Program-made: the position numbers and the translations under genes
Notes under the pieces: model-generated
What the model was told of the DNA's origin: nothing
The model's input: only the letters and a program-made list of their open reading frames with translations
Databases searched by the model: none
DNA from: Misgurnus anguillicaudatus
Lineage: Eukaryota > Chordata > Actinopteri > Cypriniformes > Cobitidae
Direction: 5' to 3'
Assembly (NCBI RefSeq): GCF_027580225.2
Contig: NC_073352.2
Coordinates: 28,948,001-29,012,000, forward strand
Length of the DNA: 64,000 nucleotides
Shown: positions 10,578-49,835 of the stretch, piece after piece
Layout: each line of letters starts with the position of its first letter
How positions within the stretch are numbered: position 1 is the first letter of the stretch

Positions 10578-12941
10578 CTCTCCAGAATCTCTCCTCCTGC
10601 GATCTGGTATCACTAGAGTATTCCTATTACTGCCAGGTGCTAGAGTAGAACCGACACTCATTCTAGGTCCAACTAGCATGTACCGTTTGTCTCCAGATCT
10701 GTACTGAATGCTGTGACACAGAGTCCCGTCGTAATTCGCATCTTGTAAATACTTAGATGAATAGTCTGAAGATTTAGAGCACTGCATTACAATCAGCACG
10801 ATGATACTGATGATAAAAAGCACCGACACAGAGCCCAATGTGATGATCAAGTAAAACGTCACGTTGTTTTCCTCCTCGTCTTTCACTGCGTTTGTAACAT
10901 CAGAAGCTGCAAAAGCCTCTTTAGGCTCCACAACTTTCACAATCACAGTCGCTGTTGCTGAGAGAGAAACGTTCCCATTGTCTTTCACCAGTATGACCAG
11001 TTTATGTCGGGCCTCGTCTGTTTCTGTGAATGAACGAAGGGTTCTTATCTGTCCTGTATAGCGGTCCAAACCAAACAGACTGTGATCACTAACTTCCTGT
11101 AGTGAAAATAATAACCAGCCGTTGTATCCTATATCTGCGTCATAGGCTCTGACTTTAGTCACCAAATGACCTGCGTTCACATTGCGGGGAATCTCCTCCA
11201 CACCCTCAGCAGAACCGTTAGCGCTGACTGGATATAAGATCACTGGGACGTTGTCGTTCTGATCCAGAACAAACACGTTCACTGTCACATTACTGCTCAG
11301 AGACGGAGACCCAGAGTCTGTAGCGAGAACGTGGAACTGGAATGTTTTTACAGTTTCAAAGTCAAAACTCTTCAGCGCATAAATCTCTCCATTTTCTGAG
11401 TTAATGTTAATAAAAGATGTGTATTTGTTTTCTACACCACCATCTCTCCATATCTGATAGTTAACAACACCGCTTTCACTGGCATCTTTATCAGAAGCAG
11501 ACACAGAAAATAAAGATTTGCCTGGCACATTATTTTCCATTACATAAAACGCATAAGGGGAAGAGCTGAACTCTGGACTGTTGTCATTTACATCTGACAC
11601 TTGCACAGTTATAGTTTTAACAGAAGACAGAGGCGGCTGTCCGGCGTCTTTGGCTACCAACATAACTTCATAGTGAGATGTTGTCTCTCTGTCAAGAGCT
11701 GATGTTGTAACTAAGGAATATGTATTATCTTGTGTTGAAGATATTAGTTTGAAAGGTATGTCCTCAGGTATTGAACATGAGACTCTCCCATTTACTTCAG
11801 AATCTAAATCTGATACACTTATTAAAGCCACTGTGGTGCCAGGTTTGGAGTCTTCAGGAACAGACTCTGAAAATGATGTCACTTCTATCTGAGGAGGATT
11901 GTCATTTACATCTGCTATTTTTATAGTAATTATTTTATCTGTTGATAGAGGAACAGTTCCTTTATCAAAGGCTTTAATATCAATTTGATATTTATCTTTA
12001 ATTTCAAAATCCAAAAGGCCTGTCACAATAATGTCTCCTGTGGTTGGATTAATTTCAAAAAGTTTACGTAATTTGTTATTTACGTTATGTCCTAATGCAT
12101 AAACTACTTCACCGTTTTGACCTTCGTCTGAATCGGTTGCATTTACCCTTAAAATTGTTGTACCTACAGGCGTGTTTTCATTCAGCACTACACTGTAAGT
12201 ATCTTTAGTAAACACAGGAGCATTATCATTGATATCTAACACATCTATCGTTATGTCCATCGTTCCAGACTTTGGCGGTTTGCCTCCATCTAAAGCAGTT
12301 AATTGAAATCGTATACTTTTAGTGACCTCTCGATCAAGCGGCTTTTGCAATATAAGTACGGGAACTTTGCCGTCTTCATCTCGATCTATAATTTCAATAC
12401 GAAAATAATCGGTGTGACTGAGTTTATAAACCTGAACTGAATTACTGCCACTATCTGGATCACGCGCTCCCTGAAGCTGGAAACGAGCACCAGGAAAAAC
12501 TGATTCGTATATTTCTAAATGCATTTCCTGCTCTGGGAATCTCGGAGCGTGATCATTCACGTCAATTATATCAACAGTCACGTAATGAATCTCTAGTGGA
12601 TTTTCTAACGCGATTTTCAGATTGATTAAACACGGGTTGATTTTCTCGCACACCACCTCTCTGTCTATTTTACCGTTCACATACAAAACACCGTCATTCT
12701 GATTCACACTGAACAATGACTCGCCTGAGGTCGAGACGATGCGACATCTTCGATCATTTAAGGTTTTGTGATCAATACCCAAATCCTTCGCAATATTTCC
12801 TATAACAGCTCCATCCTTCTGCTCTTCAGAGATCGAGTAACGAATTTGCGCCCAGACCGTCCTTCCAAAAACAAGCGAGAAAGCAATGAAGAGGATTTTC
12901 AAACGCGGCTCCAGCCAGTGATGAGGTCTCCTTTGTCCCAT
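10578..12941 (-). CDS. pcdh2ab-like: Clustered protocadherin variable exon V14 (group B)
   Basis: 788 codons. Signal peptide 1-31 ([12 protein letters not shown] start, cleavage before QIRYS), six EC repeats, membrane span and stub. CX5C in EC1 reads CEKINPC. EC4 and EC5 share long stretches with group A (for example [15 protein letters not shown]), whereas EC1-EC3 are distinctive of group B. Donor GTAAGA. The start is supported by the identical N-terminus in V11-V13. CTCF-like element 222 bp and canonical RE1 388 bp upstream of the ATG. Confidence 0.95.
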
Positions 12942-13162: not shown

Positions 13163-13179
13163 ACACTGACACCTCGCGA
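13163..13179 (-). promoter_or_regulatory. CTCF-like conserved sequence element of V14
   Basis: TCGCGAGGTGTCAGTGT on the coding strand, 222 bp upstream of the ATG; a GGGGAGTGGGCG box lies between the two. Confidence 0.78.
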
Positions 13180-13328: not shown

Positions 13329-13349
13329 GTCAGCACCACGGACAGCGAC
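13329..13349 (+). promoter_or_regulatory. RE1/NRSE (REST site), canonical, V14
   Basis: Matches 19 of 21 positions of the REST consensus (halves TTCAGCACC and GGACAGCGCC two bases apart). The bases seen are GTCAGCACC, AC, GGACAGCGAC. It lies 388 bp upstream of the V14 ATG. REST represses neuronal genes outside neurons and in progenitors. Confidence 0.85.
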
Positions 13350-13780
13350 CCTGTTGCTTTTGTGCATTTCGGTAAATGTAACATAAGAGATCTCAATCGT
13401 TCATATTAATACGATCTGCATTCACCTTAGAAACGTTGGAGTTAGGAATGGGCTTTCTTTCGTGCTTTTTGCAGATAATCGTAAGATGGGTTTTGTATGA
13501 TTTCAAACAGAATTGTCACCTGGTAAAACAGGTTCGCTTTCCCGAGAGATCAGGTTGAATAGGCTATTTCATGTTAAAATACAAACTTCTTTATTCTTTT
13601 GGCCTCAACAAGCGAATCTAAAACAAACAATAATAACAATTTCTTAATGACTGTTAAAAAGCAAAGGCCTGCATAAAATATCTATATATTTGATTATTTG
13701 GACATTAAATGAATATAACGAAATAAAATATCAAATAACCATGAAGGATATACAAATAACAACTTCATCCGTTTTCTTAC

Positions 13781-16144
13781 CTCTCCAGAATCTCTCCTCC
13801 TGCGATCTGGTATCACTAGAGTATTCCTATTACTGGGAGGTGCTAGAGTAGAACCGACACTCATTCTAGGCCCAACTAGCATGTACCGTTTGTCTCCAGA
13901 TCTGTACTGAATGCTGTGACACAGAGTCCCGTCATAATTCGTATCTTGTAAATACTTGGACGAATAGTCTGAAGATTTAGAGCACTGCATTGCAATCAAC
14001 ACGATGATACTGATGATAAAAAGCACTGACACCGAGCCCAATGTGATGATCAAATAAAATGTCACGTTGTTTTCTTCATCGTCTTTCACTGCGTTTGTAA
14101 CATCAGAAGCTGCAAAAGCCTCTTTAGGCTCCACAACTTTCACAATCACAGTCGCTGTTGCTGAGAGAGAAACGTTGCCATTGTCTTTCACCAGTATGAC
14201 CAGTTTATGCTGGGCCTCGTCTGTTTCTGTGTATGAGCGAAGGGTTCTTATTTGTCCTGTATAGCGGTCCAAACCAAACAGACTGTGATCACTAACTTCC
14301 TGCAGTGAAAATAACAACCAGCCGTTGTATCCTATATCTGCGTCATAGGCTCTAACTTTAGTCACCAAATGACCCGCGTTCACATTTCGGGGAATCTCCT
14401 CCACACCTTCAGCAGAACCGTTAGCGCTCACTGGATATAAGATCACTGGAACATTGTCGTTCTGATCCAGAATAAACACGTTTACTGTCACATTACTGCT
14501 CAGACACGGAGATCCAGAGTCTGTAGCGAGCACGTGGAACTGGAATGTCTTTACAGTTTCAAAGTCAAAACTCTTTAGCGCATAAATCTCTCCGTTTTCT
14601 GAGTTAATGTTAATAAAAGATGTGTATTTGTTTTCTACACCACTATCTCTCCATATCTGATAGTTAACAATACCGCTTTCACTGGCATCTTTATCAGAAG
14701 CAGACACAGAAAATAAAGATTTGCCTGGCACATTATTTTCCATCACATAAAACGCATAAGGGGAAGAGCTGAACTCTGGACTGTTGTCATTTACATCTGA
14801 CACCTGCACAGTTATAGTTTTAACAGAAGACAGAGGTGGCTGTCCAGCGTCTTTGGCTACCAACATGACTTCATAGTGAGATGTTGTCTCTCTGTCAAGA
14901 GCTGATGTTGTAACTAAGGAATACGTATTATCTTGTGTTGAAGATATTAGTTTGAAAGGTACGTCCTCGGGTATTGAACATGAGACTCTTCCATTTACTT
15001 CAGAATCTAAATCTGATACACTTATTAAAGCCACTGTTGTGCCAGGTTTGGAGTCCTCGGGAACAGATTCTGAAAATGACGTCACTTCGATCTGAGGAGG
15101 ATTGTCATTTACATCTGCTATTTTTATAGTAATTATTTTATCTGTTGTTAGAGGAACAGTTCCTTTATCAGAGGCTTGAATGTCAATCTGATATTTATCT
15201 TTGATTTCAAAATCCAAAAGACCAGTTACAATAATTTCTCCTGTGGTTGGGTTAACATCAAAAAGTTTACGCAAATTGTAATTGACGTCATGTCCTAATG
15301 CATAAATAACTTCTCCATTTTGACCTTCGTCTGAATCGGTTGCATTTACCCTTAAAATTGTTGTGCCTACAGGCGTGTTTTCATTTAGCACTACACTGTA
15401 AGTTTCTTTAGTAAACACAGGAGCATTATCATTGATATCTAACACATCTATCGTTATGTCTATTGTTCCAGACTTTGGCGGTTTGCCTCCATCTAAAGCA
15501 GTTAAATGTAATCGTATTCTTTTAGTGACCTCTCGGTCGAGCGGCTTTTGCAATATCAGTACGGGAACTTTGCCATCTTCATCTCGATCTATTATTTCAA
15601 TACGAAAAAAATCAGTGTGGCTGAGTTTATAAACTTGAACTGAATTACTGCCACTATCTGGATCACGCGCTGCCTTAATTTGGAAACGCGCACCAGGAAG
15701 GACAGTTTCACTTATTTCTAAGCGCTTTTCCTGTTCTGGGAATCTCGGAGCGTGGTCATTCACGTCAATAATATCAACAGTCACGTAATGAATTTCTAGT
15801 GGATTTTCTAACGCGATTTTCAGATTGATTAAACACGGGTTGATTCTCTCGCACACCGCCTCTCTGTCTATTTTACCGTTCACATACAACATACCGTCAT
15901 TTTGATTCACACTGAACAATGGCTCGCCTGAGGTCGAGACGATGCGACATCTTCGATCATTTAAGGTTCTGTAATCAATACCCAAATCCTTCGCAATATT
16001 TCCTACAACAGCTCCATCCTTTTGCTCTTCAGAGATCGAGTAGCGAATTTGCGCCCAGGCCGTCCTCCCAAAAACCAGCGAGAAAGCAATGAAAAGGATT
16101 TTTAAACGCGGCTCCAGCCAGTGATGAGGTCTCCTTTGTCCCAT
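13781..16144 (-). CDS. pcdh2ab-like: Clustered protocadherin variable exon V13 (group B)
   Basis: 788 codons, closest to V12 and V14. CX5C reads CERINPC. An unusual extra cysteine sits near the EC5/EC6 junction (SPCLSS in place of SPSLSS), which leaves an unpaired Cys in the ectodomain. EC6 has RSYTETDE where most copies have RSFTETDE. Donor GTAAGA; the open frame continues 28 codons into the intron as readthrough. The 5' spacer carries the GGGGAGTGGGCG box, the CTCF-like element and a canonical RE1. Confidence 0.95.
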
Positions 16145-16369
16145 TTTGCAACTCGATCCACGACAATTTCACAACGCTCTACAAATGTTCATTGAAAAGT
16201 CACATCGGAGACAATTCAATTATGTAGCACTCCAAAAAAATAATACAAAGACATTCGTTGTACAAAAGCACCAAGCAAGACGCACCACTGATAAAAATGA
16301 ACAAATGTTTCAATGCAAGTGACGACAGACGGGGAGTGGGCGTATTTTTGCACTATGAGCCATAGGTTT

Positions 16370-16386
16370 ACACTGACACCTTGCGC
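16370..16386 (-). promoter_or_regulatory. CTCF-like conserved sequence element of V13
   Basis: GCGCAAGGTGTCAGTGT on the coding strand, 226 bp upstream of the ATG. Confidence 0.78.
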
Positions 16387-16527
16387 TTCTCCACTTTCAT
16401 TGCAGTGTTATTCATAATAGAATAACTGTAAAGTTATATTTCTTAAAGCTTTCTGAAAAGACCGTAAACACATACAGCCACCAAGTCCAGTGCTTTGTAA
16501 TGCAGCAAAAAATGCAGTATTTAAACA

Positions 16528-16548
16528 ATCAGCACCACGGACAGCGAC
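16528..16548 (+). promoter_or_regulatory. RE1/NRSE, canonical, V13
   Basis: 19 of 21 matches: ATCAGCACC, AC, GGACAGCGAC; 384 bp upstream of the V13 ATG. Confidence 0.85.
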
Positions 16549-17053
16549 CCTGCTGTTTTCGTGCATTTTAGTAAAATTTTCAAAAAATAATCTCATAGCA
16601 ATAACCTACTACACATCTATTTCACGAGGTTTCTAATTCGTTTGAACTTGTACGATCTCGATCGTATATATTAATACGATCTGCATTCGCCCCAGAAACG
16701 TTGGGATTATGAATGGGCTTTCTTTCGTGCTTTTTGCAGATAATTGTACGATGCACATCGTATGATTTCAAATAAAATAGTCACCAGGTAAAACAGATGG
16801 TTTCCCGTGAGTTTAGGTTGAATAGACTATTTCATGTACATCAAATTCAAACTTCTTTGTTCTTTTTGCCTCGATAAGCGAATCTTAAAAAACAACAAAT
16901 AACAATTGCTGTTAAAAATCAAACGCCTACATAAAATAGCTATATCTTTGATTATTTTAAACATTCAATAAATATAACAAAAACAATGAATATAAATAAC
17001 ATTTTAAATAACCAGAAAGGAAATACCAATACAATTTTTATCCATTTTCTTAC

Positions 17054-19417
17054 CTCTCCAGAATCTCTCCTCCTGCGATCTGGTATCACTAATGTATTTC
17101 TGTTACTGCCAGGTGCTAGAGTAGAACCGACACTCATTCTGGGTCCAACTAGCATGTACCGTTTGTCTCCAGATCTGTACTGAATGCTGTGACACAGAGT
17201 CCCGTCGTAATTCGCATCTTGTAAATACTTGGACGAATAGTCCGAAGATTTCGAGCACTGCATTACAATCAACACGATGATACTGATGATAAAAAGCACT
17301 GACACAGAGCCCAATGTGATGATCAAATAAAATGTCACGTTGTTTTCTTCATCGTTTTTCACTGCGTGTGTAACATCAGAAGCTGCAAAAGCCTCTTTAG
17401 GCTCCACAACTTTCACAATCACAGTCGCTGTTGCTGAGAGAGAAACGTTCCCATTGTCTTTCACCAGTATGACCAGTTTATGCTGGGCCTCGTCTGTTTC
17501 TGTGAATGAGCGAAGGGTCCTTATCTGTCCTGTATAGCGGTCCAAACCAAACAGACTGTGATCGCTAACTTCTTGCAGTGAAAATAATAACCAGCCGTTG
17601 TATCCTATATCTGCGTCATAGGCTCTGACTTTGGTCACCAAATGACCTGCGTTCACATTGCGGGGAATCTCCTCCACACCTTCAGCAGAACCGTTAGCAC
17701 TTACTGGATATAATATCACTGGAACATTGTCGTTCTGATCCAGAATAAACACGTTCACTGTCACATTACTGCTCAGAGACGGAGATCCAGAATCTGTAGC
17801 GAGCACGTGAAACTGGAATGTCTTTACAGTTTCAAAGTCAAAACTCTTCAGCGCATAAATCTCTCCATTATCTGAATTAATGTTAATAAAAGATGTATAT
17901 TTGTTTTCTACACCGCCATCTCTCCATATTTGATAGTTAACAACGCCGCTTTCACTGGCATCTTTATCAGAAGCAGACACAGAAAATAAAGATTTGCCTG
18001 GCACATTATTTTCCATTACATAAAACGCATAAGGGGAAGAGCTGAACTCTGGACTGTTGTCATTTACATCTGACACCTGCACAGTTATAGTTTTAACAGA
18101 AGACAGAGGTGGCTGTCCAGCGTCTTTGGCTACCAACATGACTTCATAGTGAGATATTGTCTCTCTGTCAAGAGCTGATGTTGTAACTAAGGAATATGTA
18201 TTATCTTGTGATGAAGACATTAATTTAAAAGGTACGTCATCGGGTATTGAACACGAGACTCTTCCATTAACTTCAGAATCTAAATCTGATAAACTTATTA
18301 AAGCCACTGTTGTGCCAAGTTTGGAGTCCTCAGGAACAGATTTTGAAAATGACGTCACTTCTATCTGAGGAGCATTGTCATTTACATCTGCTATTTTTAT
18401 AGTTATTATTTTATCTGTTGATAGAGGAACAATTCCTTTATCAGAGGCTTTAATATCAATTTGATATTTATCTTTAATTTCAAAATCTAAAAGGCCTGTC
18501 ACAATAATGTCTCCTGTGGTTGGGTTAACATCAAAAAGTTTGCGTAATTTGGAATTTACGTTCTGTCCTAATGCATAAACTACTTCTCCGTTTTGACCTT
18601 CGTCTGAATCGGTTGCATTTACCCTTAAAATAGTTGTACCTACATGCGTGTTTTCATTTAGCATTACAATATAAGTATCTTTAGTAAACACAGGAGCATT
18701 ATCATTTATATCCAACACATCTATCGTTATGTCCATCGTTCCAGACTTTGGCGGTCTGCCTCCATCTAAAGCAGTTAATTGTAATCGTATACTTTTAGTG
18801 ACCTCTCGATCAAGCGGCTTTTGCAATATAAGTACGGGGACTTTGCCATCTTCATCTCGATCTATTATTTCAATACGAAAATAATCGGTGAGACTGAGTT
18901 TATAAATTTGAACTGAATTACTGCCACTATCTGGATCACGCGCAGCCTGAAGTTGAAAACGCGCACCAGGAAGGACAGTTTCACTTATTTCTAAATGCAT
19001 TTCCTGCTCTGGGAATCTCGGAGCGTGATCATTCACGTCAATTATATCAACAGTCACATAATGAATCTCAAGTGGATCCTCTAAAGCGATTTTTAGATTG
19101 ATTAAACACGGGTTGATTCCCTCGCACACCGCCTCTCTGTCTATTTTACCGTTCAAATACAACACACCGTCATTTTGATTCACACTGAACAATGACTCGC
19201 CTGAGGTCGAGACGATGCGAAACCCTCGATCCTTTAAGGTTCTGTGATCAATACCCAAATCCTTCGCAATATTTCCTACAGGAGCTCCGTCCTTCTGCTC
19301 CTCAGAGATCGAGTAGCGAATTTGCGCCCAGACCGTCCTCCCAAAAACAAGCGAGAAAGCAATGAAGAGGATTTTCAAACGCGGCTCCAGCCAGTGATGA
19401 GTTCTCCTTTGTCCCAT
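17054..19417 (-). CDS. pcdh2ab-like: Clustered protocadherin variable exon V12 (group B)
   Basis: 788 codons. Group B N-terminus [12 protein letters not shown], signal cleavage before QIRYS, EC1 CX5C as CEGINPC. The juxtamembrane segment reads [13 protein letters not shown] instead of the common [15 protein letters not shown]3 reads NENTHVGTT where its siblings have NENTPVGTT. Donor GTAAGA; readthrough into the intron continues 33 codons. The upstream spacer holds a CTCF-like element identical to that of V13 and an RE1 with three mismatches. Confidence 0.95.
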
Positions 19418-19654
19418 TTTGCAACTCGGATCTACAACAATTTCACAACGGCTCTACAAATATTCATCGAATAGCCACATCAGAGAAAACTTAATTATGT
19501 AGCACTCCAAAAAATAAAATAATTCAAAATAATGCGTTGTACAAAAGCGACAAGCAAGCAAGACGCACCACTGATAAAATTGAACAAATGCTCGAGTACA
19601 AATGACGAAGCAGACGGGGAGTGGGCGTATTTGTGCACTATGAGTCATAGGTTT

Positions 19655-19671
19655 ACACTGACACCTTGCGC
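19655..19671 (-). promoter_or_regulatory. CTCF-like conserved sequence element of V12
   Basis: GCGCAAGGTGTCAGTGT, identical to the V13 element, 238 bp upstream of the ATG. Confidence 0.78.
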
Positions 19672-19814
19672 TCTTTCACTTTCATTGCAGTGCTATTCAA
19701 AATAAAAATAAATGCAAAGTTATAGTTTTTAAACCTCTCTGGAATGATCGTAAACACATACAGCTAGACAATTACAGTGCTTTGTGATGCAGCAAACAAT
19801 GCAGTGTTAAAACG

Positions 19815-19835
19815 TTCAGCACCATGGACAGTGGC
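19815..19835 (+). promoter_or_regulatory. RE1/NRSE, canonical spacing, V12
   Basis: 18 of 21 matches: TTCAGCACC, AT, GGACAGTGGC; 398 bp upstream of the V12 ATG. Confidence 0.78.
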
Positions 19836-21005
19836 CATACTTTCGTGCATTTCAGTGAAAATTTCCAACACAATCTCATAACATAACCCACTACACATCT
19901 AGTTCACGAGGTTAGTATTTTGCATGAATTTGTAAGATCTCAATCGTGTATATAGCATGATCTGCCTTCACCCCAAAAAACTTTGGGGTTGGGAATGGGG
20001 TTTCGTTTGTGCTTCTTAACAGATAATTGTATGCTTTTGTATGATGCACATCATATGAATTCAAACAAAATTGCAACCAGGTAAAACATGTGTTAGGGTG
20101 GATCAACTACAGTAGTTCAGGCTGTAGGAAAGCCTAAATGACTAAAGCAACGTTAACAGCAAGATGGTATAAAACTGTATATTTCTTGTCAGTTCCTATC
20201 CATCTGCAACTTATACCAATGACGGAAATAAACGCAGTTATGATAGCAAAATATGTGGGAGAGCATTGCATGACATGGTAAATAATACATGTACAATTAA
20301 CTGTTTTCAATGTACAGTATATGAAATATTAGGATAGAGAACAGAGAAAGAAAGAAAGTTTAAAAGAGTCTCCATTGAGCACTGAAAATTTGGCCTAATG
20401 GCCCAGAGCTCAGGTAAAGAACAAGAGCATAGAAAATAAGCAGAATCCAAGAGCAGAGCTCATAGAGACCATACAGTCCAAACGAAGATAAGGGAAAAGA
20501 AAAGAGCCTGAGCATACCCAAAATATTGCCTTTTATCCATTCCTTGACCATATGACCAAACCCAACATGATACATTCAATCTGACCAATCAGAAGAGTAG
20601 ACAACCTTTAACACTCACTGTACTGGATAAATAACTCTGCCAATCATCTTTGATCACTATCAGTGAGCACAGGAGTGCAGATGGTACAAGAAGGCATTGG
20701 GAATTGAGACAGAGTAATAAATTCCTGTTTTCCTTGTTTGTCTCATCCTTACATACGGCTTCCCGTGATATTAGGTTGAATATTTAATGTAAATAAAATA
20801 CAAACTTCTATAGTCACAACAAGTAAATCTAAAACAAACCAAAACTACAATTGCTGAACTGTTGTTTAAAAAACAAAGGCCTGCATAAAATAGTTATATA
20901 TTTGATTATTTTAAACACTAAAGGAATATAAATGAAAAACAATGAATAAGTATAATATTGAAAAACCATGAAGGATATACAAATAACAACTTCATCCATT
21001 CTTAC

Positions 21006-23357
21006 CTCTCCAGAATCTCTCCTCCTGCGATCTGGTATCACTAGAGTATTTCTATTACTCCCAGGTGCTAGAGTAGAACCGACACTCATTCTGGGTCCAA
21101 CTAGCATGTACCGTTTGTCTCCAGATCTGTACTGAATGCTGTGACACAGAGTCCCGTCGTAATTTGCTTCTTGTAAATACTTGGACGAATAGTCTGATTT
21201 AGAGCACTGCATTACAATCAACACGATGATACTGATTATAAAAAGCACCGACACAGAGCCCAATGTGATGATCAAATAAAATGTCACATTGTTTTCCTCT
21301 TCGTCTTTCACTGCGTTTGTAACATCAGAAGCTGCAAAAGCCTCTTTGGGCTCCACAACTTTTACAATCACAGTCGCTGTTGCTGAGAGAGAAACGTTCC
21401 CATTGTCTTTCACCAGTATGACCAGTTTATGCTGGGCCTCGTCTGTTTCTGTGAATGAGCGAAGGGTTCTTATCTGTCCTGTATAGCGGTCCAAACCAAA
21501 CAGACTGTGATCACTAACTTCCTGCAGTGAAAATAATAACCAGCCGTTGTATCCTATATCTGCGTCATAAGCTCTGACTTTAGTCACCAAATGACCTGCG
21601 TTCACGTTGCGAGGAATTTCCTCCACACCTTCAGCAGAACCGTTAGAGCTCACTGGATATAAGATCACTGGAACATTGTCGTTCTGATCCAAAATAAACA
21701 CGTTTACTGTCACATTACTGCTCAGAGACGGAGATCCAGAGTCGGTAGCGAGCACGTGGAACTGAAAAGTCTTTAAAGTTTCAAAGTCAAAACTCTTCAG
21801 CGCATAAATCTCTCCGTTTTCTGAGTTTATGTTAATAAAAGATGTATATTTGTTTTCTACACCACTATCTCTCCATATCTGATAGTTAACAATACCGCTT
21901 TCACTGGCATCTTTATCAGAAGCAGACACAGAAAATAAAGATTTGCCTGGGACATTATTTTCCATCACATAAAACGCGTAAGGGTTAGAGCTGAACTCTG
22001 GACTGTTGTCATTTACATCTGACACCTGCACAGTTATAGTTTTAACAGAAGACAGAGGTGGCTGTCCAGCATCTTTGGCTACCAACATAACTTCATAGTG
22101 AGATGTTGTCTCTCTGTCAAGAGCTGATGTTGTTACTAAGGAATATGTATTATCTTGTGTTGAAGATATTAGTTTGAAAGGTACGTCATCGGGTATTGAA
22201 CACGAGACTCTCCCATTTATTGCAGAATCTAAATCTGATACACTTATTAAAGCCACTGTTGTGCCAGGTTTGGAGTCCTCAGGAACAGATTTTGAAAATG
22301 ACGTCACTTCTATCTGAGGAGGATTGTCATTTACATCTGCTATTTTTATAGTTATACTTTTATCTGTTGATAGAGGAACAGTTCCTTTATCAGAAGCTTG
22401 AATGTCAATCTCATATACATCTTTGACTTCAAAATCCAAAAGACCAGTTATAATAATTTCCCCAGTAATTTGGTTAACATCAAATAGTTTATCATTTACG
22501 TTATGTCCTAATGCATAAACTACTTCTCCGTTTTGACCTTCGTCTGAATCGGTTGCATTTACTCTTAAAATTGTTGTGCCTACAGGCGTGTTTTCATTCA
22601 ACACTACACTGTAAGTATCTTTAGTAAACACAGGAGCATTATCATTGATATCTAACACATCTATAGTTATGTCCATCGTTCCAGATTTTGGTGGTCTGCC
22701 TCCATCTAAAGCAGTTAATTGCAATTGAAACCGTTTTGTAATCTCTCGGTCAAGCGGCTTTTGTAAAATTAACACGGGAACTTTGCCGTCTCTGTCACGA
22801 TCTTTTATATCAATGCGGAAATAATCGGTGTGGCTTAATTTGTAAATCTGAACTGAATTACTGCCACTATCTGGATCACGCGCTGCCTGAAGTTGGAATC
22901 GCGCACCGGGAAGGACAGTTTCACTAATTTCCAAACGCTTTTCCTGTTCTGGGAACCTCGGAGCGTGATCATTCACGTCAATTATATCAACAGTCACGTA
23001 ATGAATCTCTAGTGGATCTTCTAAAGCGATTTTCAGATTGATTAAACACGGGTTGATTCTCTCGCACACCACCTCTCTGTCTATTTTACCTTTCACATAC
23101 ATAACACCGTCATTTTGATTCACACTGAACAATGACTCGCCTGAGGTCGAGACGATGCGAAATCCTCGATCCTTTAAGGTTTTGTGATCAATACCCAAAT
23201 CCTTAGCAATATTTCCTACAACTGCTCCGTCTTTTTGCTCTTCAGAGATCGAGTAGCGAATTTGCGCCCAAACCGTCTTTCCAAAAACAAGCGAGAAAGC
23301 AATGAATAGGATTTTCAAACGCGGCTCCAGACAGTGATGCGGTCTCCTTTGTCCCAT
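21006..23357 (-). CDS. pcdh2ab-like: Clustered protocadherin variable exon V11 (group B)
   Basis: 784 codons, four fewer than the other group B exons. Three codons are missing in an EC3 loop (VNDKLFDVN against [12 protein letters not shown] in V14) and one serine codon is missing in the cytoplasmic stub (CSKSDYSS against CSKSSDYSS), giving a 69-residue stub. Neither breaks the frame. EC1 has VKGKIDRE where siblings have VNGKIDRE. Donor GTAAGA. It is the first group B copy in transcription order, after the long group C run. Confidence 0.95.
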
Positions 23358-23604
23358 GTTTTTCTTTAAGTAGGCTACTTATTCCACCAGAAATTTACAA
23401 CGGGTTGAAAATATCAGTTGAAAGGCCATGCGACAAATAACCACATTTTCTAAACCCCGTAAAATATTACGAATAAAATGTAAGGACAAAAGCAACGACC
23501 AAGCTCCCACTGACAAAATCAGATCACGATCGTGTGCAAGCCACTATGCACTATTGGGAAAAGAGGGCGGTATTCTTTGGCGCTGAGATTTGTTTTCTAG
23601 GTTC

Positions 23605-23621
23605 ACACTGACACCTCGTGA
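23605..23621 (-). promoter_or_regulatory. CTCF-like conserved sequence element of V11
   Basis: TCACGAGGTGTCAGTGT on the coding strand, 248 bp upstream of the ATG. Confidence 0.78.
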
Positions 23622-23756
23622 TCTTCCTCATTTACTGCACTAATATTAATATATACATTTAAAAAGAAAAACTTGCTGTGAATAAGTTCTGAAAGACATA
23701 ATAGCCTATATTCAAAAATCGAGAATGATGCGCAGCAGAGAAATCCGCATAATGAA

Positions 23757-23777
23757 TTCAGGACTAAGGACAGCGCC
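23757..23777 (+). promoter_or_regulatory. RE1/NRSE, canonical spacing, V11
   Basis: 18 of 21 matches: weak left half TTCAGGACT, spacer AA, perfect right half GGACAGCGCC; 400 bp upstream of the V11 ATG. Confidence 0.72.
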
Positions 23778-24411
23778 TGGACAACATAGTTTGCGAAATA
23801 TCAAAAAGGAAAATAAAAAGCCTAATGTGCATATACTTTCCTACATAAAATGCAAACAAGAAAAAAACTTTAATTTTTTTCAACCACAGACCTATAATTG
23901 TTTGTCGGGAAATTATTTTTTATTTATTAAACCGTATTCATTAAATCACAATTTTTTTATGAAGTGTGCATTTACAGTTTCATAACTGAACTTTATGACA
24001 CTCTAAATACATAACCAATTAAATGTGTATGAAGTTGAGTTATGAAACTGTACATGCATGATGTTAGGTAATCAGACCAGTTAACAGACGAGGCACCTCA
24101 CATAGATTTATGCATTTATTACACCAAATCCCAGAGTGCAAGGTAGAGAATTAAAATTTTGTTGCAAAATGTAATCAAATTTGTCATAATAATTACAATG
24201 CAATTTTATCAGCAATTCAATCACATTACTAAAGGCCGGCGGGAGCGACAAAAACAAAGATGCAAGAACGGCTTACAAAGCTCGCATACAAGACAGAAAA
24301 ACAGACATTGAATTTGGCATAAATTACAACTGATTTTAAATACAAAAGAAAAAATAGCAAAACAATCAATTAACATTTTCCAATAAAGCTTATAGTCAGG
24401 CCTTTCCTTAC

Positions 24412-26763
24412 CTCTCCAGAATCTCTCCTCCTGCGATCTGGTATCACTAGAGTATTCCTATTACTGCCAGGTGCTAAAGTAGAACCGACACTCATTCTGG
24501 GTCCAACTAGCATGTACCGTTTGTCTCCAGATCTGTACTGAATGCTGTGACACAGAGTCCCGTCGTAATTCGCATCTTGTAAATACTTAGACGAATAGTC
24601 CGAAGATTTAGAGCACTGCATTACAATCAACACGATGATACTGATGATAAAAAGCACTGACACAGAGCCCAATGTGATGATCAAATAAAACGTCACGTTG
24701 TTTTCCTCCTCGTCTTTCACTGCGTTTGTAACATCAGAAGCTGCAAAAGCCTCTTTAGGCTCCACAACTTTCACAATCACAGTCGCTGTTGCTGAGAGAG
24801 AAACGTTCCCATTGTCTTTCACCAGTATGACCAGTTTATGCTGGGCCTCGTCTGTTTCTGTGAATGAGCGAAGGGTTCTTATCTGTCCTGTATAGCGGTC
24901 CAAACCAAACAGACTGTGATCACTAACTTCCTGCAGTGAAAATAACAACCAGCCGTTGTATCCTATATCTGCGTCATAGGCTCTGACTTTAGTCACCAAA
25001 TGACCTGCGTTCACATTGCGGGGAATCTCCTCCACACCCTCAGCAGAACCGTTAGCGCTGACTGGATATAATATTACTGGAACGTTGTCGTTCTGATCCA
25101 GAATAAACACGTTTAAAGTCACATTACTGCTCAGAGACGGAGATCCAGAGTCTGTTGCGAGAATGCTGAATTGAAACTTTTTAATTGCTTCAAAATCAAA
25201 ACTTGTAAGCGAGTGAATAATTCCTGTCTCGGAGTTTATATTCAAAAACGATGTTATGTCGTTCTGTGCCCCTACACTTCTTATTATGTTATATGATATG
25301 ACCGCGTTTTCATTAACGTCTTGATCATACGCTTTCACAGAAAATATAGAGGTTCCAGGTACATTATTTTCAAACAAATAAATCTCAATTAAATTACTAG
25401 AAAATTCCGGTTTGTTATCATTCACATCCGCTACTTGGATGCTTAATGTTTTGAAGGATGACAAGGAGGGTTGGCCTAGATCTGTGGCTGTGATTGTGAT
25501 GTCAAAACCGGATTGGAGTTCACGATCTAAATGTCCCTTCGTCACTAAAGAGTACATATTGTCCTGAAAGGAGGGCTTTAATTCAAAAGGAAGGCTCTCA
25601 GAGAGACTACACACAACTTTACCATTGACACCAGAGTCTTTATCGGAGACACTTATCAAAGCAACTACCGTGCCAGGTTTGGCACCCTCAGGAACAACGT
25701 TAGATAACGAAGTAAGCTCCATTTCAGGCCTGTTATCGTTAACATCTTGTATTTTTATTATAACTCGGCCTTGTGCAGATAAAGGAGGCTGCCCTTTATC
25801 TGAAGCCTGGACATCTAGTTTGTAAACGTCGGTATCTTCAAAGTCTACATCGCCTTTAACCCTAATTTCGCCCGTTACGCGGTCCAGCTCAAATATATCA
25901 TAAACTTTACGTTTTAGAGTTTGACCTAGGAAATATTCAACCTCACTGTTCGAGCCCTCGTCGGTGTCAGTTGCCTTTATTTTAATTACTGTTGATCCAA
26001 TCGGTAAATTTTCTTGTAAAGTCACAGAATACGTGTCTTGACTAAACACAGGGCGATTATCATTAATGTCCAACACAGTAACAGTAATATTAAGGGTTCC
26101 TGATTTTGGAGGGTTTCCACCATCGAGGGCCGTAAGAACGAGCAAATGTTCGGCTTTTTGTTCACGATCAAGTGGTTTTCGTAACACTAAAAATGGAATT
26201 TTTTCTTCATCGCTGTTTTTAATGTCAATCTCGAAATTTTCATCATGACTTAATTTATACAAGCGAACAGAATTCGGTGCTGTGTCTTGGTCACGCGCTG
26301 CATGCAACTGGAAGCTGGTTCCTATAGGGGTGTGTTCTGCAATCTCAAAAATCTGATTTTGCTCAAGAAAACTAGGATTATTGTCATTAATGTCTGTTAT
26401 TTCTATAGCAACGTAGTGGATTTCTAAAGGATTTTCGACTGCAGTTTTCAGATTTATTAAGCATGCACCGGCACCGTCGCAGATCGCCTCTCGGTCTATT
26501 CTTTTATAAATATATAATTCCCCATTATTCTGATTTACCTGAAAAAGGGCATCTTTGGAACCAGAGACTATACGGAATCGTCTGTCCACCAATATACTCG
26601 ATTGAAGTCCCAGATCCTTAGCTATATTTCCCACAACAGAGCCCTCTTTCATTTCCTCTGGAATGGTGTATCTTATCTGAGCTGAAATCTGACCAAAGCA
26701 CAAAAACAAAGAGAAACACAAAGCGATCCGGCAGTACTCGCCTCCGCGCCTTTGTTCGTCCAT
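24412..26763 (-). CDS. pcdh2ab-like: Clustered protocadherin variable exon V10 (group C)
   Basis: 784 codons. Starts [12 protein letters not shown]; signal peptide about 28 residues, cleaved before [11 protein letters not shown]1-EC5 differ strongly from group B; EC1 CX5C reads CDGAGAC. EC5 carries [10 protein letters not shown], and homogeneity with the other copies begins near the end of EC5 ([16 protein letters not shown]). Donor GTAAGG. The promoter has the CTCF-like element but only a left RE1 half-site. Confidence 0.95.
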
Positions 26764-26979
26764 TCTTATGATTGCTTCAATACAGCCAAAAACGATTCAG
26801 CGATGCGTTGACATAAAAATTATATTTCACGTAGTCCCGGCACCGAATAAATGACCAAGCCGCTCGTAAAATTCAGCTTCTAGCGATGTATCAGATTCTA
26901 CAGTTTAAATAAACGGAACAGCCATGCGCAGCACATATTGATGATGGGCAGGACCAAACATAGTGCATATCCTTATGTA

Positions 26980-26996
26980 ACACTGACACCACACGG
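26980..26996 (-). promoter_or_regulatory. CTCF-like conserved sequence element of V10
   Basis: CCGTGTGGTGTCAGTGT on the coding strand, 217 bp upstream of the ATG. Confidence 0.78.
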
Positions 26997-27401
26997 TTTA
27001 AAATCACAAGTACACTGTCAGAAAAAGGACGTATTGTGTATCTATAAGTAATTATTGTGTACCAGTTAACTGTTAGTACAAAACATTCAACTGTATGCAA
27101 TAGGTATTTAAGGTACAGTAATGTACAACAGTGTATTATATTTTACAAAACGGAACATTTGCGTACCACCCCATGGAGAGAAAAGAAAAGTTTACTTGTT
27201 TTTCACACAATATAATTTTTTTAGCTGCCAAGTATATTTTATCAGAAAATGACAAAATTAATAAAAGCTTCTTCATAAGATGAAATTGTCCACACACCCA
27301 TAACTTTCTAAAATAAAATATATTTAAAATATGCTTTTTGGGGATTATATAAAAACGTGTTTATCTTCCAAAAAATTTTATTTCTTATAATAAAAACAAA
27401 G

Positions 27402-27409
27402 TTCAGCAC
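27402..27409 (+). promoter_or_regulatory. RE1 left half-site only, V10
   Basis: TTCAGCAC, 639 bp upstream of the V10 ATG, followed by no recognisable right half. Could be a decayed RE1 or chance. Confidence 0.25.
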
Positions 27410-27548
27410 ACTATCAAACTTGAAACATTGATGGGAGAGCATTGAAGTATTGCCACAATAAAAAAATTAAATGTTAAAAACTTTAGAAACTTTTTTAAAA
27501 GGCCTCACTTTAGGAAATAAAAAAGTTATTTTCTTTAAATGCGCTTAC

Positions 27549-29912
27549 CTCTCCAGAATCTCTCCTCCTGCGATCTGGTATCACTAAAGTATTCCTATTA
27601 CTGCCAGGCGCTTGAGTAGAACCGACACTCATTCTAGGTCCAACTAGCATGTACCGTTTGTCTCCAGATCTGTACTGAATGCTGTGACACAGAGTCCCGT
27701 CGTATTGCGCATCTTGTAAATACTTGGACGAATAGTCTGAAGATTTCGAGCACTGCATTACAACCAACACGATGATGCTGATGATACAAAGGACCGACAC
27801 AGAGCCCAACGTGATGATCAAATAAAACGTCACGTTGTTTTCCTCCTCGTCTTTCACTGCGTTTGGAACATCAGAAGCTGCAAAAGCCTCTTTGGGCTCC
27901 ACTACTTTCACAATCACAGTCGCTGTTGCTGAGAGGGAAACGTTCCCATTGTCTTTCACCAATATGACCAGTTTATGCTGGGCCTCGTCTGTTTCTGTGA
28001 ATGAGCGAAGGGTTCTTATCTGTCCTGTATAGCGGTCCAAACCAAACAGACTGTGATCACTAACTTCCTGCAGTGAATATAATAACCAGCCGTTGTATCC
28101 TATATCTGCGTCATAAGCTCTGACTTTAGTCACCAAATGACCTGCGTTCACATTGCGGGGAATCTCCTCCACACCCTCAGCAGAACCGTTAGCGCTCACT
28201 GGATATAAGATCACTGGGACGTTGTCGTTCTGATCCAGAATAAACGCGTTCACTGTCACATTACTGCTCAGAGACGGAGATCCAGAGTCTGTAGCGAGCA
28301 CGTAAAACTGAAACGTTTTAACAGTTTCAAAGTCAAAACTTTTAAGTGCAGAAATTACGCCCGTTTCAGGGTTTATATTAAGGAACGAAGCCATATCAGT
28401 TTGTGTCTGATCGCCTCTTATTATATTGTATGTAATAATTGCGTTTTCATTAAGATCTTTGTCTGACGCACCCACAGAGAAAACTGACGCACCTGGGGTA
28501 TTATTTTCCACTAAATAGAGCTCAAGGGGACTTCTGATAAACTCTGGTTTGTTATCATTAACATCAGCCACCTGTATTGTAATAGTTTTATAGGAAGAAA
28601 GAGGCGGCTGACCTAAATCAATAGCTTTAATAGTGATTTTATAATCTGAGACAAGTTCCCTGTCCAAGCGCTCTTTGGTTACTAAAGAATACATATTTTC
28701 TTGAACCGATGGTTTTAACTCAAAGGGAACATTGTCTGAAATACTACATATAACTTTACCGTTAACACCAGAGTCTTTATCTGACACACTGATCAGCGAA
28801 ATTACAGTGCCGGGTTTTGAATCCTCAGAAATTACGTTGGAAAGTGAAGTCACGTCTATCTCGGGATTATTATCGTTCTCGTCTGTGATTTTTATAATGA
28901 CTCTGCAGTCAGTGGTCATCGGCGGTTGGCCCTTATCTGTGGCCTGGACTGTCAATCTGTGTACCTCATTCTCCTCAAAATCAATTGGTTCTTTGATTTG
29001 TATTTCACCAGTGGCACTATCAAGGCTAAATGTTTCATGCACCTTTCGTCTACTAGCTTTACCAAGCGTGTACATAACCTCCCCATTTAAACCTTCATCA
29101 GAATCAGTAGCGTTAACTTGTGCTATAACTGTGCCTATTGGTGTGTTTTCTGGAAAGGTAACTGAATATAAATCTTTACTACATACCGGGCGGTTGTCGT
29201 TTATATCAAGAACAGTAATAGTAATATTTAAAGTGCCTGATTTCGGGGGGTTGCCCCCATCCACAGCGGTCAACACAAGTCTGTGCTCCGAATTTTGCTC
29301 TCTGTCTAACGGTTTAAGTAAAACCAAGATTGGATTTTTTTCCTCCTCGTCAACATCTCTCATTTCCAAGTCAAAATAATTGTTCTTTCCCAGTTTATAA
29401 GACCGAACAGAATTACTTCCAATGTCAGGATCTCTTGCATGTTGGAGTTCAAAACGTACACCTGCGACTGTGCTTTCAGACATTTTAAAATGTTGCTCTT
29501 TCTCGGGGAAGCGAGGACTGTGGTCATTCACATCTGTAATTTCCACTCCAGCATAATGAATTTCAAGTGGATCTTCAACTGCGATTTTTAAATTTATCAA
29601 GCAAACGCTATTTCCGTCGCACGAGGCCTCCCTGTCGATTTTCTTACTAACATACAATTCGCCATTGTTTTGATTTACCTGAAAAAAGGCATCTGTAGAT
29701 CCAGAGACAATACGGAACCGTCTGTTCACCAAATTATTCGCATCAAGACCCAAATCCTTAGCAATATTTCCCACGACATATCCCTCATTAACCTCCTCTG
29801 GAACAGAGTATCTTATTTGGGATGAAACACGCTGCCCGAAACTCAGCAGCGAAGAAAAACACAAAGCAATCCAGCAGTACTCCCATATGCGCCTTTGTCT
29901 CTCGGCTTCCAT
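27549..29912 (-). CDS. pcdh2ab-like: Clustered protocadherin variable exon V9 (group C)
   Basis: 788 codons. Start [14 protein letters not shown], signal cleavage before QIRYSVPEE. One EC linker reads [10 protein letters not shown] rather than the usual DVNDN; this keeps acidic and Asn ligands but is atypical. The membrane span contains an extra Cys ([13 protein letters not shown]), and the juxtamembrane segment reads [10 protein letters not shown]. An RGD tripeptide occurs in EC5 ([10 protein letters not shown]). Donor GTAAGC. Confidence 0.95.
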
Positions 29913-30160
29913 CGTTAAGGATCTCTTTAAAACGGCTTAAAACAAATCACTAAAATTAGTCACTCATTCATGACAGCGTGTATTTAAAATAATCCATCCG
30001 TTTAATAATGCTGAGAAATTTATCGGTTATTTGTACAGCATCGTTATCCTGCTGCTAGTAATATAAGATGGATCTCTTATCCCAATGCAAACGAACAAAA
30101 CAGCCCTGCGCACCACATTTCAAGGGGATGGGCTACATCTTTATTGCTTATCACAATACA

Positions 30161-30177
30161 ATAGTGACACCATATGG
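30161..30177 (-). promoter_or_regulatory. CTCF-like conserved sequence element of V9
   Basis: CCATATGGTGTCACTAT, 249 bp upstream of the ATG; one of two copies (with V5) with C instead of G after TCA. Confidence 0.7.
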
Positions 30178-30386
30178 CACAAAAGAGGTAGAAGTATTAT
30201 ATAAACATGCATGAATCCACCGCAAAATACATATTGCTTCCTACATAATACATATTACTTTAAAACTGCTTTGAATAACGGCTAAATACTTTTTTCACGT
30301 ATTAAAAAGTTAATTAAACAAAAAAAATTCACCTCCACAAAAACCTCCTAATAAAACACACACATAGTAACACACAGTTAAAGCAT

Positions 30387-30407
30387 TTCAGTACCACGGA
30401 CAGCAAT
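30387..30407 (+). promoter_or_regulatory. RE1/NRSE, canonical spacing, V9
   Basis: 17 of 21 matches: TTCAGTACC, AC, GGACAGCAAT; the mismatches cluster at the 3' end, the least constrained part. 475 bp upstream of the V9 ATG. Confidence 0.7.
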
Positions 30408-30500
30408 TGTTTCAGTCAAGATGGCGAAAACCATAAAATATATCTGTGTTATGTATTATAATTCACCGAAATTATCAGAAATAATATGTGCTCTGTGGAG

Positions 30501-30767
30501 CACTGTAAAAAGTGAAAGTTGGATCTATTTAAAAAATATTTCAACAATTAACACTTAAAAAAAAAAAAATTTCAAATGAACTTTTCTAATTTTAAGTGAG
30601 AAATTTAAGGTATTTTTTAAAATAATTACTTCGATTGGTAACGCCTAAAAAATAAGCTTTTTTAAACCTAAAAGTTTTACTTAAAGTAAGGAAATTCAAG
30701 TTAAAAAAAAGTTTAATTTTTTAGATGTAGTTATTTTTATGTTAACCCATCTTTTACTTTTACAGTG
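30501..30767. mobile_element. Short AT-rich MITE
   Basis: 267 bp with ends CACTGTAAAAAGTGAAAG and CTTTTACTTTTACAGTG, inverted with small differences. Upstream of V9, just outside its RE1. Confidence 0.6.
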
Positions 30768-30845
30768 TACTGTGATGAACTAAAGTAATAAGGTACTATG
30801 TTTAATATAATGTTTTAAAATAAGGAAATAAATATTACATCTTAC

Positions 30846-33206
30846 CTCACCAGAATCCCTCCTCCTGCGATCTGGTATCACTAGAGTATTCCTATTACTG
30901 CCAGGTGCTAAAGTAGAACCGACATTCATTCTGGGTCCAACTAGCATGTACCGTTTGTCTCCAGATCTGTACTGAATGCTGTGACACAGAGTCCCGTCGT
31001 AATTTGCGTCTTGTAAATACTTGGACGAATAGTCTGAAGATTTAGAGCACTGCATTACAATCAACACGATGATACTGATGATAAAAAGCACTGACACAGA
31101 GCCCAATGTGATGATCAAATAAAACGTCACGTTGTTTTCCTCCTCGTCTTTCACTGCGTTTGTAACATCAGAAGCTGCAAAAGCCTCTTTGGGTTCCACA
31201 ACTTTCACAATCACAGTCGCTGTTGCCGAGAGAGAAACGTTCCCATTGTCTTTCACCAGTATGACCAGTTTATGCCGGGCCTCGTCTGTTTCTGTGAATG
31301 AGCGAAGGGTTCTTATCTGTCCTGTATAGCGGTCTAAACCAAACAGACTGTGATCACTAGCTTCCTGCAGTGAAAATAACAACCAGCCGTTGTATCCTAT
31401 ATCTGCGTCATAGGCTCTGACTTTAGTCACCAAATGACCCGCGTTCACATTGCGGGGAATCTCCTCCACACCCTCAGCAGAACCGTTTGCGCTCACTGGA
31501 TATAAGATCACTGGAACGTTGTCGTTCTGATCCAGAATAAACACGTTCACTGTCACATTACTGCTCAGAGACGGAGATCCAGAGTCGGTAGCGAGGACTT
31601 GAAACTGGAATGTTTTTGAAGTTTCAAAGTCGAAACTTTTTAACGCACTGATTACACCTGTTTCTGAATTTATGTTTAAGAATGAAGGCATATCATTCTG
31701 TGTCCCGTCGCCTCTAATTAAATGATATGAAATTAAAGCATTATCATTAATGTCTTTATCAAATGCGGTTACGGCGTAAATAAAGCCACCTGGAACGTTG
31801 TTTTCCGATAAATAAAGTTCGAGAGGATTTACAATAAAATCCGGCTTATTGTCATTAACATCGGAAATTTGTACTGTTAGTGTCTTAAACGAGGTTAGAG
31901 AAGGTTGACCAATGTCTGTCGCAATTATTGTGATCTCATACTGAGACGTTGCTTCTCTGTCCAAGTGCGTTTTGGACACTAAAGAATACATGTTGTCTTG
32001 AACAGACGGCTTAATTTCAAATGGGACATTAGCAGATAAAGTGCATACAACTTTGCCATTTGCACCAGAATCTCTGTCTGACACACTAATGAGTGAAATT
32101 ACGGTTCCGGGTTTTGAATCTTCAGGAATAACATTAGACAGTGATGTAATCTCGATTTCGGGGGCGTTATCGTTTACGTCTAATATTTTGACTATAACTC
32201 TACAGTCGACTGTCATTGGTGGGTTCCCTTTATCAGAGGCGAAGATATCGAATCTGTAAACCTCAACGTCCTCAAAGTCAATTTTATTCTTAACTCGAAT
32301 TTCCCCTGATACGCTGTCCAACAGAAATATATCATTAACTTTACCGTTTAAATTCCCATCAAGCGTATATCGCACTTCACCGTTTAACCCCTCATCAACG
32401 TCCGTAGCGTTAACTTTAATTACAACAGTATCAGGCTGCACGTTTTCTTGTAAATTAACAGTGTAAACATCTTGACTAAATACAGGGCGATTGTCATTGT
32501 TATCCAGGACCGTGACGGTTATATTTAATATTCCTGACCTCTGCGGATTCCCACCGTCAATCGCGGTTAATATTAATTTATGTTCAGCCTGACTTTCCCT
32601 ATCCAGTGGCCTTCTCAAGAGAAGAAAGGGATTTTTTTCGTCGCCCCTGTCCCTTATCTCCAAATCAAAATGTTCATTTTGGCTCAGTTTATACGATCGC
32701 ACAGCATTCACACCAATATCAGGATCACGCGCAGCTTGTAGCTGGAAGCGCGCTCCTGGCTGGGTGCTTTCCGCAATTTCGACTATTTGTTTTTTCTCTG
32801 GAAATTTAGGAGAATGATCATTCACATCAGTAACATCAACGGCTACATAATGGACCTCCAAAGGATCTTCAACTACTGTCTTAATGTTCACAATACAGAC
32901 AGTATTTCCGTCACATTGTTCCTCTCTGTCGATTCGTTTATGGACATATAAAATGCCATTGTCTGGGTTTACCTGGAAAAGCGTGTCCTCAGATCCAGAA
33001 ACAATACGAAACCGTCTGTTCACTAACGTGCTGACATCAAGACCCAAATCCTTAGCAATATTTCCTACAACAGATCCCTCTTTTGCCTCCTCTGGAATAG
33101 TGTATCGTATTTGGGCTGAAACCTGCAGTCCGAAGCAGAGCAGCAAAGAGAAACGCAGAGCAATCCACCAGTATTCCCATCCGCGTCTTTGTTCAGCAGA
33201 TCCCAT
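30846..33206 (-). CDS. pcdh2ab-like: Clustered protocadherin variable exon V8 (group C)
   Basis: 787 codons from the ATG at [14 protein letters not shown]. An in-frame ATG 19 codons upstream (33263) also exists but has no counterpart in the paralogues. Signal cleavage before QIRYTIPEE. The EC2/EC3 linker has [10 protein letters not shown] in place of LDVNDN. Two RGD tripeptides are present, in EC2 (DRGDEKNPF) and EC5 ([10 protein letters not shown]). The stub has [11 protein letters not shown] where the others have [11 protein letters not shown]. Donor GTAAGA, with a silent GGT for the conserved Gly codon at the exon end. Confidence 0.95.
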
Positions 33207-33436
33207 TATAAACAATTCGCTAATGCAGTTTGCCTTACAGAATATAAGATTTGGTTTTAACATACAAATCTAAAATTCCATTCCTATAAAAACGTTCTTT
33301 CAATCGAAACAAAACAGGTTATTTAAGACGGGAGCAGTAGCGTGAATCTGCTGCTTGTTCACGCTCTGCACAGACAAAAACAGACCTGCGCGTCATCTAC
33401 TGATGGTCAGGACAAAATCCTATTTCCCTCGATGTT

Positions 33437-33453
33437 ACACTGACACCGTCTGG
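33437..33453 (-). promoter_or_regulatory. CTCF-like conserved sequence element of V8
   Basis: CCAGACGGTGTCAGTGT on the coding strand, 231 bp upstream of the ATG. Confidence 0.78.
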
Positions 33454-33726
33454 TGAAACGTGATAAGAAATATTCTGAAATCTGTATTTTCAATGTTAAT
33501 AACATCTACGAAAAACACATGAAAGACTTGGAGTTGCCATTATTTTAATAGGCTAGTTTTAAATAACGAATGATAATTGTACATAGCCATCATTTAAAAG
33601 CGCCAAATAAGTAAGTATGCAATGAAAACTACATAGCATTCAGGTTCTTTCTGAATACTTTCGAGAGATTTCAAACAAAGGATCAAAACAGAGAAAAGTA
33701 TATGAACGTAGGAGACCGAGAGAAAG

Positions 33727-33747
33727 GTCAGCACCACGGACAGCGAC
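33727..33747 (+). promoter_or_regulatory. RE1/NRSE, canonical, V8
   Basis: 19 of 21 matches: GTCAGCACC, AC, GGACAGCGAC, the same variant as V14 and V13 although V8 is in group C; 521 bp upstream of the ATG. Confidence 0.85.
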
Positions 33748-36959: not shown

Positions 36960-36986
36960 TTCAGCACTACATTAACGGACAGCTCC
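36960..36986 (+). promoter_or_regulatory. Expanded-gap RE1, V7
   Basis: Left half TTCAGCACT, eight-base gap ACATTAAC, right half GGACAGCTCC; 549 bp upstream of the V7 ATG. The gap is six bases longer than canonical, within the expanded class described for REST. Confidence 0.72.
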
Positions 36987-43400: not shown

Positions 43401-43427
43401 TTCAGCACCACGGCAACGGACAGCTCC
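43401..43427 (+). promoter_or_regulatory. Expanded-gap RE1, V5
   Basis: Perfect left half TTCAGCACC, gap ACGGCAAC, right half GGACAGCTCC; 436 bp upstream of the V5 ATG. Confidence 0.78.
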
Positions 43428-49808: not shown

Positions 49809-49835
49809 TTCAGCACTAAAGGGCTGGACAGCTCC
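49809..49835 (+). promoter_or_regulatory. Expanded-gap RE1, V3
   Basis: TTCAGCACT, gap AAAGGGCT, GGACAGCTCC; 634 bp upstream of the V3 ATG. The gap bases differ from V5 and V7 while both halves are kept. Confidence 0.74.

Follow-up and report, generated by a model that had tools for sequence, protein, structure and literature searches.

Our analysis of a protocadherin alpha (Pcdh-alpha) cluster of the weatherloach identified eleven RE1 sites upstream of its variable exons, all in a single orientation, with gaps of either 2 or 8 bp between their half-sites and in clear excess over chance expectation. RE1 is the binding site of REST, which silences neuronal genes outside the nervous system. These are very probably REST/NRSF sites at individual Pcdh-alpha promoters, for which a shared gate between neurons and non-neuronal cells is the likeliest role. 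Sites of this kind are already known from the promoter NRSEs of fugu; what is new, and well supported, is the loach as a further fish that carries them.

The window, i.e. the whole stretch of 64,000 bases that was analysed, contains 16 open reading frames (ORFs) of 786-842 amino acids, all on the minus strand, which together occupy 38,880 bases. The only other frame of at least 250 amino acids in the ORF list is a single 320-amino acid ORF on the plus strand, located within V3. We kept the exon numbering of the original prediction (V1 to V16), in which V1 lies at the high-coordinate end. Cadherin repeats were present in all four of the 16 exons submitted to a Pfam scan. The protein search covered one exon, V13, which shares 789 of 795 residues with protocadherin alpha-5 isoform X22 of Misgurnus anguillicaudatus; the six residues that differ all fall past the splice point. 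The protein P0015 (939 amino acids) equals V13 as far as the splice point and continues with other sequence, and a zebrafish relative among the listed matches is protocadherin 2 alpha a 15 (83%). The organization found agrees with that of Pcdh-alpha variable exons, namely a single large exon with cadherin repeats that splices to shared constant exons, on the basis of four of the 16 exons and of the comparison of V13 with P0015. Because of the V13 protein match and the cadherin repeats in the four scanned exons, the window is, as judged from exon V13, a Pcdh-alpha cluster of a weatherloach (Misgurnus), and very probably of M. anguillicaudatus.

According to the original prediction, six promoters (V8, V9 and V11-V14) carry an RE1 matching 17 to 19 positions of the consensus, in a common orientation and 384-521 bp upstream of the ATG. 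All six sites were recovered where predicted (Table 1), the matches being counted against a 21-position RE1 consensus, and the range of distances is exact provided that the inner, likely ATG of V8 is used, which lies 521 bp from its RE1 (464 bp separate the site from the start of the longest ORF). The motif TTCAGCACC is read on the plus strand in all six cases and the exons on the minus strand, hence the sites are antisense to the genes. Among the 28 consensus matches listed, the next best reaches 16/21 and belongs to the 8-bp gap site of V5 described below. When the strict cut-off for a canonical RE1/NRSE was applied following the definition of PMC3531662 (core TCAGCACCnnGGACAG, at most one mismatch, gap of 2 bp), five of the six sites passed and V11 failed with two mismatches. 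A scan of the window with a REST matrix, an approximate one, was also in agreement with the prediction, the six sites scoring 21.8-28.9 and the best match over 60 shuffled windows 18.5.

Table 1. Coordinates of RE1 sites, CSE-like cores and representative variable exons in the window.
Feature	Position	Strand	Remarks
Pcdh-alpha variable exon V14	10554..12941	-	ORF, reads past splice point; in exon tree with V11-V13
CSE-like core GGTGTCAGTGT of V14	13163..13173	-	Best match within 400 bp upstream
Canonical RE1, gap 2, V14 promoter	13329..13349	+	19/21; 0 core mismatches; 388 bp upstream of ATG
Pcdh-alpha variable exon V13	13694..16144	-	ORF; cadherin domains; protein match
Similar CSE-like cores (first base)	16380, 19665, 23615, 30171, 33447, 36671, 43218, 49429, 56407	-	
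Canonical RE1, gap 2, V13 promoter	16528..16548	+	19/21; 0 core mismatches; 384 bp upstream of ATG
Canonical RE1, gap 2, V12 promoter	19815..19835	+	18/21; 0 core mismatches; 398 bp upstream of ATG
Canonical RE1, gap 2, V11 promoter, weaker core	23757..23777	+	18/21; 2 core mismatches; 400 bp upstream of ATG
Canonical RE1, gap 2, V9 promoter	30387..30407	+	17/21; 1 core mismatch; 475 bp upstream of ATG
Pcdh-alpha variable exon V8	30780..33263	-	ORF; Pfam cadherin domains
Canonical RE1, gap 2, V8 promoter	33727..33747	+	19/21; 0 core mismatches
Non-canonical RE1, 8-bp gap, V7 promoter	36960..36986	+	Half-site scan
Non-canonical RE1, 8-bp gap, V5 promoter	43401..43427	+	Half-site scan
Non-canonical RE1, 8-bp gap, V3 promoter	49809..49835	+	Half-site scan
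Left half-site only, TTCAGTACC, V2 promoter	52894..52902	+	Left half-site scan
Pcdh-alpha variable exon V1	53752..56193	-	ORF; Pfam cadherin domains
Non-canonical RE1, 8-bp gap, V1 promoter, proximal copy	56823..56849	+	Half-site scan
Non-canonical RE1, 8-bp gap, V1 promoter, distal copy	57161..57187	+	Half-site scan; repeat families D1, D3

An exploratory scan for half-site pairs at 15 gaps, from -2 to 12, revealed five more pairs with at most two mismatches that were absent from the original prediction, all of them on the plus strand and with a gap of exactly 8 bp. They have both half-sites in the same order and orientation and a gap within 7-9 bp, the configuration of a non-canonical RE1/NRSE. 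The canonical matrix is blind to these sites, except for that of V5 (score 13.4). In their left halves the only mismatch is a T in place of C at position 9 (V3 and V7), a position described as barely conserved in the non-canonical class (PMC8096226). Two of the five are found upstream of V1, in the copies of a tandem duplication of 335-338 bp with 94-96% identity (56704-56892 and 57039-57230); since this duplication produced the second copy, both V1 sites represent one origin. In the distal copy, the core of the right half-site is altered at one position, which counts against reading this copy as a REST site.

Altogether, an element with two half-sites occurs in 10 of the 16 promoters. The expectation that each isoform has a REST gate of its own thus holds, as far as motifs go, for these ten and fails for V2, V4, V6, V10, V15 and V16, in whose promoters the half-site scan found no two-half-site element, and their absence there counts against the gate. 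Left half-sites with at most one mismatch were found 26 times in the window, 10 inside the RE1s and 16 outside, compared with 13.1 per shuffle; because this number is near chance level, lone left half-sites were not counted. The one in the V2 promoter is possibly the relic of a decayed RE1.

The abundance of these sites bears on whether they could be chance matches in a repetitive cluster, multiplied because the promoters are copies of each other, an explanation that we consider extremely improbable. The core TCAGCACCNNGGACAG with at most two mismatches occurs six times in the window and 0.23 times per shuffle (60 shuffles). The left 9-mer followed by GGACAG at a gap of 2 bp, again with at most two mismatches, occurs six times and is expected 0.055 times per window (200 dinucleotide shuffles, maximum 1), while pairs at a gap of 8 bp, defined with a shorter right half, occur five times and are expected 0.11 times (200 shuffles, maximum 2). 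Over all 15 gaps, 13 pairs with at most two mismatches were found against a mean of 1.0 and a maximum of 5 in 200 shuffles; two of the 13, isolated pairs with gaps of 9 and 10 bp, were excluded from the RE1 count. The distribution of mismatches is discontinuous, with 11 pairs having 1-2 mismatches, none having 3 and five having 4, and ten shuffles gave means of 0.2 pairs with 2 mismatches, 0.7 with 3 and 4.8 with 4. The zebrafish genome is about 1.4 Gb in size. Over this assumed size, the 1102 zebrafish core sites with at most one mismatch (PMC3531662) correspond to about 0.05 per 64 kb, and five loach sites in the window pass that cut. Furthermore, all 11 sites fall in the 1-kb zones upstream of the exons, which make up 13,800 of the 64,000 bases (21.6%). 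Repeated weak matches do occur in this cluster, as illustrated by a stretch with three core mismatches common to 14 of the 16 exons, but the promoter sites have 0-2 mismatches and are present even in promoters without clear similarity between their flanks. Nevertheless, the 11 sites are not 11 independent events, because those of V12-V14 are near-copies.

The stretch in question, TCAGCAACAGCGACTG or one letter off it, is found on the gene strand in V1-V7, V9-V14 and V16, at about nucleotides 1980-2052 from the ORF start (e.g. at 14149 on the minus strand), and encodes LSATATVIV in V13. Of the 21 core matches with three mismatches in the window, where 2.35 are expected, 14 are copies of this stretch. 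As an RE1 the stretch was rejected as too weak on account of its three core mismatches; the five of its 14 copies that appear in the matrix list score 2.9-6.1, and the mean best score of a shuffled window is 9.4. Likewise rejected were the TTCAGCAGAACCGTTAGCGCT-like matches of 14-15/21 seen in 12 exons, as coding sequence that departs from the RE1 core at five positions (a count made by hand). Within the exons, there was no match at a gap of 2 bp with fewer than three core mismatches and no pair with fewer than four half-site mismatches at gaps from -2 to 12. Any correspondence between the codons of the TCAGCAACAGCGACTG stretch and those of the exonic NRSEs in human alternate alpha exons would be of interest in its own right. 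Separately, far upstream of V1, an RE1-like 21-mer, TACAGCCCCAGTGACAGAAAA, occurs at 63644 and at 63979, once on each strand and with a spacing of about 335 bp, which hints at an inverted repeat.

The position of the RE1s within the promoters was assessed relative to the CSE. A CSE-like core matching 9-11 of 11 letters is present in all 16 promoters, the second-best match reaching 6-8 letters. In every case it precedes the ORF start by 184-259 bp, so that an element like the conserved CSE of Pcdh promoters, which sits some 200 bp before the ATG, was found throughout. The RE1 is located upstream of the CSE, by 142-156 bp in V11-V14 and by 183-416 bp in V5, V9, V8, V7, V3 and V1 (proximal copy). 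In mammals the CSE is a CTCF/cohesin site, and the CSEs of the zebrafish alpha cluster are described as divergent and devoid of the CGCT box (PMC4978886). When placed in register with a CTCF consensus, 11 of the 16 loach CSEs have two mismatches and five have three, a level of two mismatches being reached at 26 places in the window. A long ATT-type microsatellite was also observed upstream of the V4 CSE, between 46484 and 46830.

The original prediction further proposed that the element was copied together with the exon-promoter unit. We compared the 150-bp flanks, leaving out the RE1 itself, in the 45 pairs of ten sites (with the proximal copy only for V1) against single-letter shuffles. The pairs among V12, V13 and V14 reached z values of 8-35 (29-35 for the right flank) and were the only ones above 5. 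The highest remaining values belonged to V11, at 2.4-3.8 when paired with V12-V14 or V1, and to the pair of V1 and V8, at 3.0; the right flank of V11 is weakly similar to those of V12-V14 (z 2.5-3.8). No clear shared flank was detected in the 45-pair test for V8, V9 and the gap-8 sites, whose values were at or near chance. Thus, to judge from the flanks, the proposal clearly applies to V12-V14, which share long flanks, and probably to V11. V8, V9 and the gap-8 sites, which share no clear flank, fit both an old copying event maintained by selection and separate origins.

These comparisons also bear on whether the sites might be passive passengers, a single ancestral RE1 spread by duplication of exon-promoter units and gene conversion, with most of its copies now inert. 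The V12-V14 flanks are indeed near-copies across 150 bp, a local tandem duplication gave rise to the second V1 site, the half-site of V2 may be what remains of a decayed RE1, and much gene conversion has been described in teleost Pcdh clusters (PMC1852091). Passengers, however, would be expected to decay along with their flanks, and in V1, V3, V5, V7, V8 and V9 the RE1 forms an island in flanks that align at or near chance level, having diverged beyond clear alignment, although the half-sites keep 0-2 mismatches. We therefore consider this scenario very unlikely.

The two gap classes are fully separated along the cluster, the gap of 8 bp being found in V1, V3, V5 and V7 and that of 2 bp in V8-V14. 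Such a separation would be consistent with an isoform code, in which the gap-8 sites of the 5' exons and the gap-2 sites of the 3' exons differ in affinity for REST and groups of isoforms are released at different REST levels during differentiation; if so, falling REST would impose an order in time on the stochastic choice of promoters. This separation is no more than suggestive, since four sites are left against three when V11-V14 are taken as one event, and the chance of their separation is then 2 in 35 (calculated by hand). Moreover, neither gap class formed a single clade in the tree of the 16 exons, in which support was poor inside V1-V10, and the clustering of the two classes was matched in 56 and 61 of 500 shuffles of the labels. 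For these reasons the isoform code appears unlikely to us. The same tree, which is unrooted, splits V11-V16 from V1-V10 with full support, and RE1s are confined to V11-V14 within the former group; V15 and V16 either lost the RE1 or branched off before it was gained.

REST systems of protocadherin genes have been described in several vertebrates. The Pcdh clusters of fugu, mouse and human have both canonical and non-canonical NRSEs, which fugu has in promoters and mammals have in coding sequence, and deletion of NRSEs changed the expression of Pcdh constructs from neural-specific to ubiquitous in Xenopus tadpoles (PMC3601302, citing Tan et al. 2010, NAR, doi 10.1093/nar/gkq246, a study also cited in PMC3531662 and PMC3431597). 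The fugu cluster, although that of a different teleost, is close in arrangement to that of the loach, with canonical and non-canonical NRSEs in promoters (PMC3601302). In human, each of the alternate PCDHalpha exons has one NRSE (site 'a') that was bound in EMSA, with further sites in HS5-1, where the gap is 8 bp, and in HS7 (PMC8096226). The original prediction had contrasted the loach with mammals, where REST would act mainly through sites such as that in HS5-1; given the NRSE present in every human alternate PCDHalpha exon, this contrast does not hold. According to the same source, the gap at human REST sites mapped by ChIP-nexus is 2 or 7-9 bp, never 3-6 bp, and in human cells either REST knockdown or deletion of the HS5-1 NRSE increased the expression of PCDH alpha6 and alpha12 and their enhancer contacts (PMC8096226). 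The human and loach systems are alike in having per-isoform REST sites (10 of 16 promoters in the loach) of the same two gap classes, and differ in that the human NRSEs are found within variable exons and enhancers whereas the loach RE1s lie upstream of the exon (PMC8096226).

In mouse stem cells, non-canonical REST sites have spacers 'expanded by 7-11 base pairs' (PMC2573930). Like the loach sites these consist of two half-sites with an altered spacer, and in mouse they recruit REST in vivo; the class is genome-wide, the main text of that article contains no mention of Pcdh or protocadherin, and if the figure refers to added bases, the loach gap of 8 bp falls just below the range, which would count against the reading as REST sites (PMC2573930). 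A literature search found no zebrafish protocadherin work with REST ChIP-seq or a rest mutant. Tan and colleagues, in 2010, reportedly found that the NRSEs of neighbouring genes control those genes that have none of their own, and zebrafish is said to have NRSEs too.

Our results thus favour, as very probable, the reading of the loach elements as REST sites that serve as a shared gate. Besides the excess of the motif at both gaps, the proximity of all 11 sites to promoters and their single orientation, it draws support from the restriction of the loach gaps to 2 or 8 bp, inside the human gap classes (PMC8096226). By analogy with the published work on fugu and mammals, from which we infer REST binding, repression and an action on enhancer contact, REST would bind upstream of the CSE in cells with a high level of REST (non-neural cells and progenitors) and recruit corepressors, which together might hold off the promoter and its CTCF/cohesin-dependent contact with the enhancer. 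As REST falls during neuronal differentiation, Pcdh-alpha promoters would become open to stochastic, CTCF-based choice. The same gate would be repeated at most promoters rather than constituting an isoform code.

The loach therefore joins the fish with REST sites in Pcdh promoters and shows that both site classes occur together in a single teleost alpha cluster. With the cluster divided by gap class, it can be tested directly whether the order in which isoforms are released depends on REST dosage. Per-isoform REST control appears to have been kept, while its position differs between lineages, being inside the exon in human.
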